A stretch of 64,000 nt of DNA. It comes from an uncultured Pelagibacteraceae bacterium. Lineage in GTDB: Bacteria; Pseudomonadota; Alphaproteobacteria; Pelagibacterales; Pelagibacteraceae. Position numbers and translations under genes: made by a program. Numbering within the stretch: the stretch's first letter is position 1; the number at the start of each line of letters is the position of its first letter. Below are positions 26,123 to 28,787 of this stretch, piece by piece. Where the stretch lies: positions 124,001 through 188,000 of the forward strand of contig CABZDR010000001.1 in NCBI GenBank assembly GCA_902524535.1. The letters run 5' to 3'. The notes beneath the pieces were generated by a model. It was not told the origin of the DNA. It made no database searches and saw only the letters and a list, made by a program, of their open reading frames with translations.

Positions 26123-28198
26123 ATGAAAATACCACATCTTAGAAAAAAACCAGAAATAAAATCTTGTCACAACACTACATGGGAAGACAATTATAGCTGG
26201 ATACATCAAAAAAATATTTTAGAGGTTTTAAAAGACAAAAATAAATTAGATCCTGAGGTTAAAAGATATTTAAAAGAAGAAAATGAGTACACTAATCATC
26301 ATCTAAAAGACACAAAGGATTATCAAGAAAAATTATTTGATGAAATTAAAGCACGAATTAAACTCGATGATGAGTCTTTGCCTTTTAAAGATCATACCTT
26401 CGAATACTGGACAAAGACAACTTCTGAAGGAAATTACTCTATTAAATTAAGAAAAAAAATAGGTACAAATGAAATTGAGGAAATATGGAACGGAGATAAA
26501 GAAAAAGAAAAATTAGGTGTAGAATATTTTGGTATTGGAGATCTTGAGGTAAGTCATAATGATAAATATTTAGCTTACTCTCTTGATATTAAAGGATCAG
26601 AGTACTTTTCAATATTTATCAGAGAGATTGCTAACAATAAAATAATCTCTAAAGAAATCACCGACACATCCGGAAGCATACTTTTTAGCCTGGATAACAA
26701 ATATATTTTTTACTCAAAATTGGACAAAAATCACAGAGCAAGAAAAATTTTTAGACACGAGATAGGAAATTTTAAAAATACCGATGAACTAATTTTTGAA
26801 GAAAAAAGTGATGCTTTTACAGTTGGAATAGCCTTAAGTTCAGATGAAAAATACTATTTTATCTCAACTTCTGACCACAATACTTCAGAACAATATTTCT
26901 TCAAAGCTGATGAAAAAAAACCTAAACCAAAACTGATAAAAAAAAGAAAAAAGGGTATTTTATACTCTGTTAATTCTTGGGATAATAAATTTTATAATCA
27001 TACGAATGAAGAGGCAGAAGATTTTAAAATAGAAATTTCAGAAAGTCTTGATAATCAAAAATGGAAATCTTTTATAAAACCAAAAAATGAGGTTTTAATT
27101 GGAAGCTGCATCTTTTTAAAAAATTGGATAATTCGATCTGAAACATCTAACGCGTTAGATAGATTATTCGTAAGACATATATCAAAAGAGTCAGAGGAAG
27201 AATTAATTATTTCAGATGAAAAAGTTTGTGTTCCAAATATTTCTTTACGGCAAAAGGATAGAGATACTGATGAAATTTATATTGGTTACTCTAGCCCAAA
27301 AACTCCGTCGCGAGTTTACTTATATAATCTTTCAAAAAAAACTAAAAAATTGGTTAAAGAGCAGATAATTCCCTCAGGACATAATCCTAACGATTACGTT
27401 GTTGAAAGAATTGAATTTGAGTCTCATGATGGAAGATTAGTGCCTCTTACTATAACCAGGCATAAAAAAACTAAGCTAGATGGATCAGCTAATTTATTAC
27501 TATACGGATATGGTTCTTATGGAAATTCAATGAGTCCAAGTTTTTCCTCAACACGATTAAGTTTAATAGATAGAGATATAATTTGGGCAACTGCACATAT
27601 AAGAGGTGGCATGGAAAAAGGTATGAAATGGTGGAAAGAAGGAAAGCTTACTAATAAAAAAAATACTTTTGAAGATTATATATTTGCAGCAAAATACTTA
27701 ATTAAAAATAAATATTCTGGTCAAGGAAAAATAATTGGTATGGGTGGATCTGCTGGAGGATTATTGATGGGTGCAGTGGTTAATCAAGCTCCAGAATTAT
27801 TTCTAGGAATTATAATGGCAGTTCCTTTTGTTGACTCTTTAACTACTAATTTAGATCATTCTTTACCTTTAACAATTGGAGAATTTGATGAATTTGGAAA
27901 CGCAAAAGATAACAAAGAACATTTTGATTATATATTTTCATATGCTCCTTATAACAATATTAAAAAAATGGATTATCCTCACATTTTAATCACGACAAGT
28001 TTAAGTGATAATAGAGTATTATTTGATGAACCAACAAAGTTTACTGCAAAACTCAGAGATTTTAAAACTGACAATAATTTATTACTTCTAAAAACAGAAA
28101 TGAGCGCGGGTCATGGTGGTAAATCTGGAAGAGATGGTGCTATAGAGGAAATTGCATTGGATTATGCATTCGCATTAAAGATATCAAAAAAAATTTGA
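26123..28198 (+). CDS. ptrB: Oligopeptidase B (prolyl oligopeptidase family)
   Basis: Oligopeptidase B cleaves short peptides after basic residues in the cytoplasm. The 691 residues comprise an N-terminal propeller and a C-terminal alpha/beta hydrolase domain. The nucleophile is Ser543 in MGGSAGGLL; the Asp lies in SLSDNRVLFDEP and the His in AGHGGKSG. LLYGYGSYG and IRGGMEKGMKWW are classic family blocks. The N-terminus (HLRKKP...WEDNYSW) is as expected, so the start is firm although no ribosome-binding site is evident. Confidence 0.94.
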   Translation: MKIPHLRKKPEIKSCHNTTWEDNYSWIHQKNILEVLKDKNKLDPEVKRYLKEENEYTNHHLKDTKDYQEKLFDEIKARIKLDDESLPFKDHTFEYWTKTTSEGNYSIKLRKKIGTNEIEEIWNGDKEKEKLGVEYFGIGDLEVSHNDKYLAYSLDIKGSEYFSIFIREIANNKIISKEITDTSGSILFSLDNKYIFYSKLDKNHRARKIFRHEIGNFKNTDELIFEEKSDAFTVGIALSSDEKYYFISTSDHNTSEQYFFKADEKKPKPKLIKKRKKGILYSVNSWDNKFYNHTNEEAEDFKIEISESLDNQKWKSFIKPKNEVLIGSCIFLKNWIIRSETSNALDRLFVRHISKESEEELIISDEKVCVPNISLRQKDRDTDEIYIGYSSPKTPSRVYLYNLSKKTKKLVKEQIIPSGHNPNDYVVERIEFESHDGRLVPLTITRHKKTKLDGSANLLLYGYGSYGNSMSPSFSSTRLSLIDRDIIWATAHIRGGMEKGMKWWKEGKLTNKKNTFEDYIFAAKYLIKNKYSGQGKIIGMGGSAGGLLMGAVVNQAPELFLGIIMAVPFVDSLTTNLDHSLPLTIGEFDEFGNAKDNKEHFDYIFSYAPYNNIKKMDYPHILITTSLSDNRVLFDEPTKFTAKLRDFKTDNNLLLLKTEMSAGHGGKSGRDGAIEEIALDYAFALKISKKI

Positions 28199-28207
28199 TA
28201 ATCTGGC

Positions 28208-28237
28208 CTTGAAAAAAAATAATTAGTAACCAAATAA
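28208..28237 (+). promoter_or_regulatory. Heat-shock (RpoH-type) promoter for hsp20
   Basis: CTTGAA at 28208-28213 is followed after 16 bases by CCAAATAA at 28230-28237. The -35 matches the one seen ahead of groES. A start of transcription near 28243 would put the whole hairpin region at 28243-28297 in the leader. The -10 is a weak match, so confidence is moderate. Confidence 0.45.
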
Positions 28238-28242
28238 GTTTA

Positions 28243-28297
28243 GTAAGTCGCCTGATGGGGCTTACATAAATTAACTTGCTTAATATAAGGAGGAAAA
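28243..28297 (+). promoter_or_regulatory. ROSE-like RNA thermometer in the hsp20 leader
   Basis: Two hairpins precede the start codon. The first pairs GTAAGTC (28243-28249) with GGCTTAC (28259-28265). The second pairs CTTGCTT (28275-28281) with AAGGAGG (28287-28293) around an AATAT loop. The second stem hides the ribosome-binding site and contains the TTGCT/AGGAG arrangement with an internal G28278-G28290 pair, the hallmark of ROSE thermometers in alpha- and gammaproteobacterial small heat-shock gene leaders. Melting with heat would free the site for translation. Structure is deduced by eye. Confidence 0.68.
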
Positions 28298-28744
28298 ATG
28301 ACAAGTAAGGACTTATCTATATTTAATTCTCTTAGGCCCTTTTCTATTGGTTTTGATGATATGTTCGACCAATTTGAAAATATGCTAGGGAATGGTGCTT
28401 TGACTATGCAGTCAAACTACCCACCATATAACATCAGAAAAACTGGAAAGGATAATTATGCTATAGAATTAGCTTTAGCTGGTTTTAACAAAAAAGATGT
28501 TGAGGTTGAGTTTGAGGATAATTTATTAACAGTAAGAACAAAACAGGTTAATAAATCTGAGGACAATAACACAGATGGTGAGATCATTCATAAAGGTATT
28601 TCTCAAAGACAATTTGCGCGATCATTTACTATTGCTGATGATGTAAAAGTTAATGGTGCTGAACTTAAAGATGGTCTTTTGACAATATCTTGTGAAAGAA
28701 TTGTTCCAGAGCATAAGAAGAAAAAACTTATTGATATCAAATAA
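28298..28744 (+). CDS. Hsp20/alpha-crystallin small heat-shock protein
   Basis: Small heat-shock proteins hold unfolding clients for refolding by DnaK or GroEL. The 148 residues include an IbpA-like N-terminus (LRPFSIGFDDMFDQFENML) and an alpha-crystallin domain at about 40-135, with YAIELALAGFNKKDVEVE and NGAELKDGLLTISCERIVPE. A strong AAGGAGG site is present but predicted to be sequestered by a ROSE-like hairpin. A perfect terminator hairpin follows. The gene is probably a single-gene transcript under both transcriptional and RNA-level heat control. Confidence 0.95.
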   Translation: MTSKDLSIFNSLRPFSIGFDDMFDQFENMLGNGALTMQSNYPPYNIRKTGKDNYAIELALAGFNKKDVEVEFEDNLLTVRTKQVNKSEDNNTDGEIIHKGISQRQFARSFTIADDVKVNGAELKDGLLTISCERIVPEHKKKKLIDIK

Positions 28745-28754
28745 ATAGACCTTG

Positions 28755-28787
28755 CTTGCGGAGATAACTTCTCCGCAAGTAATTTTT
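28755..28787 (+). terminator. Rho-independent terminator after hsp20
   Basis: CTTGCGGAGA and TCTCCGCAAG form a perfect ten-base-pair stem around a five-base loop, followed by TAATTTTT. It lies ten bases after the hsp20 stop. It also abuts the end of the convergent lipoprotein gene and may serve both strands. Confidence 0.92.

Follow-up and report, generated by a model that had tools for sequence, protein, structure and literature searches.

A probable ROSE-like RNA thermometer in the leader of the SAR11 hsp20 gene, with related leaders in other Alphaproteobacteria and in marine phages

Few cell types in the ocean are as abundant as SAR11 bacteria, which possess very few regulators. The window analysed here, a stretch of 64,000 nucleotides, is part of a Pelagibacteraceae (SAR11) genome of about 1.1 Mb and contains hsp20, a gene for an IbpA-type small heat shock protein that aligns with E. 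coli IbpA at 41% identity. A prolyl oligopeptidase gene (26123-28198) lies upstream, and the gap of 99 bases between the two genes holds a promoter and both hairpins of the hsp20 leader. Since an intrinsic terminator follows the gene, hsp20 is probably transcribed alone, as a one-gene transcript. The features of the locus are as follows.

28208-28214, + strand: -35 element CTTGAAA of an RpoH-type promoter, recognised from its sequence.
28230-28235, + strand: -10 element CCAAAT (CCATAT in relatives), recognised from conservation across leaders.
28243-28265, + strand: hairpin I, GTAAGTC-[G]-CC-TGAT-GG-GGCTTAC, nine pairs, with G28250 bulged out; the transcript probably begins here.
28275-28293, + strand: hairpin II, putatively of ROSE type, in which the anti-SD strand CUUGCUU (28275-28281) pairs with AAGGAGG (28287-28293).
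28287-28293, + strand: Shine-Dalgarno sequence (SD) AAGGAGG, predicted to be masked by hairpin II; AAGGAG is found in 154/154 leaders of the family, with 9-13 nt from GG to ATG.
28298-28744, + strand: hsp20, IbpA-type small heat shock protein of 148 aa (Pfam PF00011, E = 1.6e-17).
28301-28309, + strand: codons 2-4, ACA-AGT-AAG, frozen at the nucleotide level, with AAGUAAG (28303-28309) as a possible alternative partner, by complementarity, of the anti-SD CUUGCUU.
28752-28782, + strand: intrinsic terminator downstream of hsp20, a 13-bp stem followed by TTTTT (1 found, 0.2 expected).

The leader comprises 55 nt, runs up to the ATG at 28298 and folds with an energy of -15.1 kcal/mol (z = -3.16; 4 of 200 shuffled sequences were equally good). 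A sequence-only reading of the window had proposed that it acts as a ROSE-type RNA thermometer, on the strength of a pairing between CTTGCTT and AAGGAGG at the hsp20 start with G28278 facing G28290. This pairing is exact in the sequence: 28275 pairs with 28293, 28276 with 28292 (U.G), 28277 with 28291, 28279 with 28289, 28280 with 28288 and 28281 with 28287, and G28278 stands opposite G28290 in the helix as drawn, a pair whose geometry is not visible from sequence. Retention of this mismatch among relatives had been anticipated, and the two G are indeed always kept in related leaders. The second, upstream hairpin of that reading is likewise present, at 28243-28265, and covaries in relatives.

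Taken as a single sequence, the masking of the SD is unexceptional, 33% of the 45 SD-led genes in the same genome being masked as much at 15 C, and the computed SD pairing in the window shifts only modestly with temperature, from 0.68 at 4 C to 0.35 at 42 C. The local stability of the hairpin is exceptional, with only one of the 45 genes equally stable. In many relatives, ViennaRNA favours other registers or pairing with codons 2-4. UYGCU followed by an SD occurs at 20 sites in the genome, and the full context is found at hsp20 only; two of the other sites, one of them at a nuoK-like gene, precede inferred starts by chance, lack that context and were rejected. The unremarkable accessibility of the SD in silico would fit a constitutive leader, in which hairpin I stabilises the mRNA and hairpin II sets a low, fixed rate of translation. 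We consider such a leader highly improbable, given that the invariance of UYGCU, the position of the G-G mismatch, the small heat shock context, the RpoH promoter and the independent occurrence of the element before hsp20 in bacteria and phages all favour regulated control. Because single-sequence masking is unremarkable, the evidence for a regulated leader rests on the comparison among relatives, and it is this comparison that raises the element above chance.

Two genome collections, contributing 80 loci and 100 stretches respectively, supplied the leaders; once identical ones were removed, 154 distinct leaders remained for Pelagibacteraceae and 16 for a second family of the same order. The TTGCT/AGGAG pairing, whose absence from relatives had been named beforehand as grounds for giving up the thermometer, is kept in all 154 distinct related leaders. 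The pentamer before the SD reads UUGCU in 151 of them and UCGCU in 3, and UCGCU in 16/16 leaders of the second family; it varies only at the U/C position, the one that is also free in known ROSE elements (PMC3669281). When changes are mapped on a tree of 148 hsp20 genes, computed from coding sequence with the leader excluded, the six anti-SD positions C-U-U-G-C-U show none, compared with 2-21 at neighbouring positions. Covariation had been expected in both stems, and this expectation was borne out in one of them. Hairpin II, which we counted by motif (MAFFT shifts it by one base in some rows), is nearly invariant within the family and hence yields little covariation signal. In hairpin I the signal is strong: a plain MAFFT alignment of 87 leaders has 96.9% of cells paired and 7 of 9 pairs varying on both sides, the covariation score of this alignment is equalled by none of 500 shuffles, and sliding the partner strand by one column reduces the pairing to 49-56%. 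A motif-anchored count on all 154 leaders agrees with this pairing, and on the coding-sequence tree pairs 3-21 and 4-20 have undergone at least 26 and at least 34 state changes, respectively. An unpaired G follows the seventh pair of hairpin I in 154/154 leaders, and the sequence of the hairpin (YGCC...GGG) is conserved more than pairing requires.

The hsp20 leaders of the second family, which contain UUAAUCGCUUAAGGAGGAUUAA and two more upstream hairpins, have a different ROSE-like layout, and the loci tested there match no Rfam model at E ≤ 1.

The promoter that had been claimed ahead of the gene, described as RpoH-like, is conserved with fixed spacing in a genome that encodes RpoH itself (362 bits, against a cut-off of 323). 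TTGAA is present in 150/154 leaders, one of the four exceptions ending at a contig edge, and the spacing from -35 to -10 is identical in 141 of the 148 leaders in which it is fully measurable. Among these 148, the -10 element is CCATAT in 93 and matches it at 5/6 positions in 24 more; in 126 it sits 7 nt upstream of hairpin I, and those 7 nt are hypervariable. Elements of the form CTTGAAA, 11-16 nt, CCCATNT together with the cognate sigma factor characterise a sigma-32 (RpoH) promoter, and both are found here. The conserved promoter and its fixed spacing predict a transcript that begins with hairpin I, at its 5' base, and speak against a start downstream of 28275. On this sequence evidence, the notion of two layers of control, one by the RpoH promoter and the other by the RNA, appears well founded.

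Placing the leader among known families gave a more graded outcome. The Rfam ROSE models to which the sequence-only reading had pointed, RF00435 and RF01832, have no match at E ≤ 10 in 28050-28400. The best of 4227 Rfam models in the leader is ROSE_3 (RF02523), at 27.0 bits (E = 0.0011), and the leader is the top site of this model in the genome (27 bits versus 12.7 for the next). The ROSE_3 gathering score of 43 bits is not reached, the best relative attaining 35 bits, and across 197 genomes of the order three match at E ≤ 0.05, none above the cut-off; E. coli ibpA, the positive control, is matched by ROSE_2 with 100 bits. Three features of the ROSE-like class are found: the element sits in the 5' UTR of a gene for a small heat shock protein, U(U/C)GCU faces the SD in the 3'-proximal hairpin, and a stable hairpin lies upstream. 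Judged by these features, the SAR11 element belongs with the ROSE-like leaders but falls outside the ROSE families that Rfam currently defines. The signature, architecture and gene context of the proposed ROSE-type thermometer thus held, the Rfam cut-offs were missed, and the sensing of temperature would be a function deduced from these features.

A covariance model, R1, was built only from Pelagibacteraceae hsp20 leaders and then applied blind. In its own genome it finds one strong site, at 75.4 bits; the other matches, the best at 21.1 bits, were rejected. Across 385 genomes of the class, searched at E ≤ 0.01, R1 matches 11 sites outside the order, of which 8 lie directly before hsp20 in other families of Alphaproteobacteria, each with U(U/C)GCU. 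The other three were rejected: L282 falls in a coding stretch, L283 is a weak site that lacks UYGCU and precedes dnaK, and L281 (1509-1540) is a terminator-like hairpin that has the same core (GGCGGTCGCCTAATGGGGCCGCC, then a T-run) and is unrelated to hsp20. Nothing convincing outside the order emerged from a phylum-wide sample, where the sole match (G973) was not before hsp20, lacked UYGCU and was rejected.

The same leader was also met in viruses. A pattern scan of viral contigs found it before divergent hsp20 genes on three phage contigs, a fourth pattern match (L285) being unrelated. Starting from three phage proteins and from the SAR11 protein, we then retrieved viral hsp20 loci, and R1 matches directly upstream of hsp20 at E ≤ 0.01 in 59/80, 44/78 and 60/87 loci, or 163/245 in all. 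UYGCU precedes the SD in 146/157 distinct viral hsp20 leaders, compared with 5/317 other viral SD-led genes, and is split into UUGCU (63) and UCGCU (84). In the register anchored on YGCC...GG, hairpin I of 112 distinct viral leaders shows 90% pairing in its six outer positions, with all four Watson-Crick pairs at most positions, against 29-48% in slid registers and 52% (maximum 58%) with permuted arms. Every one of the 12 cultured phages sampled has the element before hsp20, with E from 1e-5 to 0.027, weakest in HTVC115P and P-RSM1: the Pelagibacter phages HTVC008M, Mosig, HTVC103P and HTVC115P, and the cyanophages S-PM2, P-SSM4, Syn33, S-ShM2, P-TIM40, S-CAM22, S-CRM01 and P-RSM1. No Rfam model detects the viral copies tested. 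The element is consequently not special to the SAR11 clade; other Alphaproteobacteria and phages carry it too. Phage promoters look late-like or sigma-70-like (TTGAC), with the late-like TATAAATA in 48/157 viral leaders, and CTTGAAA was not found at -80 to -36 of viral hsp20; HTVC008M has CTTGAAA farther upstream together with the late-like TATAAATA. We found no earlier report of ROSE-like thermometers in phages in a literature search covering few subscription journals, and as far as this search reaches, the phage hsp20 leaders would be the first ROSE-like thermometers in viruses.

One group of viral loci (L470-L477, L522, L523, L529, L533 and L534) has a variant with UGUCU in place of UYGCU and with outer pairs UUAAC/GUUAA around the SD.

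Taken together, we consider it likely, judging from sequence and its conservation, that the SAR11 hsp20 leader is a short two-hairpin ROSE-like RNA thermometer. As we infer its operation, transcription would begin at the RpoH-type promoter, at the foot of hairpin I, and at ordinary sea temperature hairpin II would pair U(U/C)GCU with the SD in an imperfect helix, G opposite G, masking the SD in the cell and keeping the ribosome off. Warming would open this weak helix so that hsp20 is translated, and hairpin I would remain folded, protecting or positioning the leader. RpoH would then set the amount of mRNA, and the RNA would set whether that mRNA is read. Together with hsp20, this element would have moved into pelagiphages and cyanophages, whose copies have promoters that look phage-type and not RpoH-type. 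An energy of about -5 to -6 kcal/mol has been cited as the level at which hairpins of this kind hinder initiation (Krajewski et al. 2013, PMC3669281); in our calculations hairpin II crosses -5 kcal/mol at 28.5 C for the window and around 20 C for most relatives, values that would fit the temperatures of the sea.

The conservation of hairpin I beyond what pairing requires, and of the leader in phages under non-heat-shock promoters, would also be accounted for if Hsp20 repressed its own synthesis. Free Hsp20 oligomers would bind the leader, with the bulged G of hairpin I in the binding site, and block translation, until unfolded proteins titrate Hsp20 away; the signal would be protein aggregation and not temperature acting on the RNA. 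In E. coli IbpA, R93 is needed for mRNA binding and self-repression and Y34 provides an aromatic residue, both being absent from IbpB, and the authors suggest that this self-repression is conserved in alphaproteobacteria (PMC10474464). SAR11 Hsp20 has the equivalent Arg and Tyr, and the R93 equivalent is R in 107/108 motif-matched viral Hsp20s; in E. coli these residues are necessary, which does not imply that they are sufficient. Beyond gammaproteobacteria the argument would proceed by analogy, the Arg and Tyr may be kept for the structure of the chaperone, and self-repression alone does not explain the exact U(U/C)GCU form of the anti-SD strand. We regard it as improbable in place of the thermometer, of which it is the chief rival or partner, since the two may act jointly.

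The first codons of hsp20 merit attention of their own. Codons 2-4 are identical in 143/146 distinct coding sequences from four genera, with AGT and AAG being minority codons (background use 0.20 and 0.13), and on the tree they show 0-1 synonymous changes versus 7-26 at amino-acid-conserved degenerate codons among codons 5-31. Pairing of AAGUAAG with the anti-SD is kept in two of the three exceptions, and the 7-bp complementarity is preserved in both anti-SD types, ACUUGCUU and CCUUGCUA. In folding calculations the resulting helix competes with the SD hairpin and, at 37 C, gives the window transcript its minimum-energy fold, with a share that depends on the species and on crude energy rules. 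One could speculate about a two-state switch that includes coding sequence, in which the anti-SD alternates between the SD, giving the closed state, and AAGUAAG in codons 2-4. Pairing with these codons would leave the SD unpaired in a loop, making the opening more switch-like, or would constitute a second closed state. Complementarity of 7 bp is, however, not rare, since 24/336 genes reach it with this anti-SD and it arises in 1.7-3.8% of cases under synonymous resampling. The starts of neighbouring genes also change slowly, with a weaker slowing, the pairing is absent outside the main genera, and in one genus a C beside the anti-SD can pair with the SD in a shifted register. A coupling of the bases beside the anti-SD (A0/U7 vs C0/A7), considered as proof of the codons 2-4 helix, was dropped because the C can be accounted for by the shifted SD register (CCUU x AAGG) as well. 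The freezing of codons 2-4 is a fact, and the switch is a hypothesis, one we judge doubtful.

At its boldest, the thermometer could be extended to a mobile thermometer-plus-chaperone module common to marine Alphaproteobacteria, pelagiphages and cyanophages, in which the bulged G docks Hsp20 and the SAR11 anti-SD toggles between the SD and codons 2-4; this combination is tentative, and we think it rather unlikely as a whole.

Part of the above may have been anticipated for SAR11. The sequence-only reading had known of no description in this clade. In 2019, 47 intergenic regions of SAR11 strain HIMB5 were reported, including 'a possible RNA thermometer' whose gene the main text does not name (PMC6429828), and this candidate may well be the element described here. 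An earlier survey of P. ubique makes no mention of hsp20 or thermometers (PMC2704228). If true, a thermometer on the only hsp20 detected in SAR11 would be a direct link from seawater temperature to protein-quality control, and a mobile module, if true, would mean that viruses bring their own temperature- or aggregation-gated chaperone switch. The phage carriers include cyanophages long used as models, and their leaders offer a simple way to ask whether temperature or damage to proteins during infection sets the timing of chaperone synthesis in such viruses. For Rfam, the hsp20 leaders would constitute a new family.

Classical rhizobial ROSE elements carry an anti-SD signature before the same gene class. 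The SAR11 leader is alike in signature and gene class (PMC3669281) and unlike in architecture, the rhizobial elements having three to four hairpins and their model, RF00435, finding no match here. With the ROSE element of E. coli ibpA (ROSE_2, RF01832) it shares a last hairpin in which UCGCU faces AGGAG and a preceding hairpin with an unpaired G on the 5' side, whereas RF01832 does not match the SAR11 leader, nor does the SAR11 model match the ibpA leader. In the ibpA-ibpB intergenic region of E. coli, the SAR11 model has a weak match (13.2 bits, E 0.29) just upstream of ibpB (L284, 1402-1458, minus strand). In the ROSE_3 consensus, too, the first hairpin contains this unpaired G with CC after it. 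A single unpaired 5'-side G in the hairpin preceding the sensor is thus invariant in SAR11 (28250) and common to E. coli ROSE_2 and the ROSE_3 consensus; we met no description of this shared feature in the literature, and it is possible that the G makes a protein or tertiary contact. The self-repression of IbpA concerns the same gene family, with the key Arg and Tyr conserved in SAR11, and differs from a thermometer in that its mechanism is the binding of a protein to the leader (PMC10474464).

Closest in design are the short two-hairpin ROSE-like thermometers of Pseudomonas ibpA, which were tested experimentally and in which the ROSE signature is likewise U(U/C)GCU (Krajewski et al. 2013, PMC3669281). 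There, too, an IbpA-type small heat shock gene under a sigma-32 promoter is preceded by a stable first hairpin and a short second one that pairs U(U/C)GCU with the SD. The SAR11 leader differs in being AU-rich, and elements of its type also occur in phages. For 37 C, the computed energy of its hairpin II is about -3.6 kcal/mol for the window and about -2.7 kcal/mol for most relatives, compared with -4.1 to -7.6 kcal/mol reported for the Pseudomonas hairpins (PMC3669281), and this weaker helix would suit cooler water.
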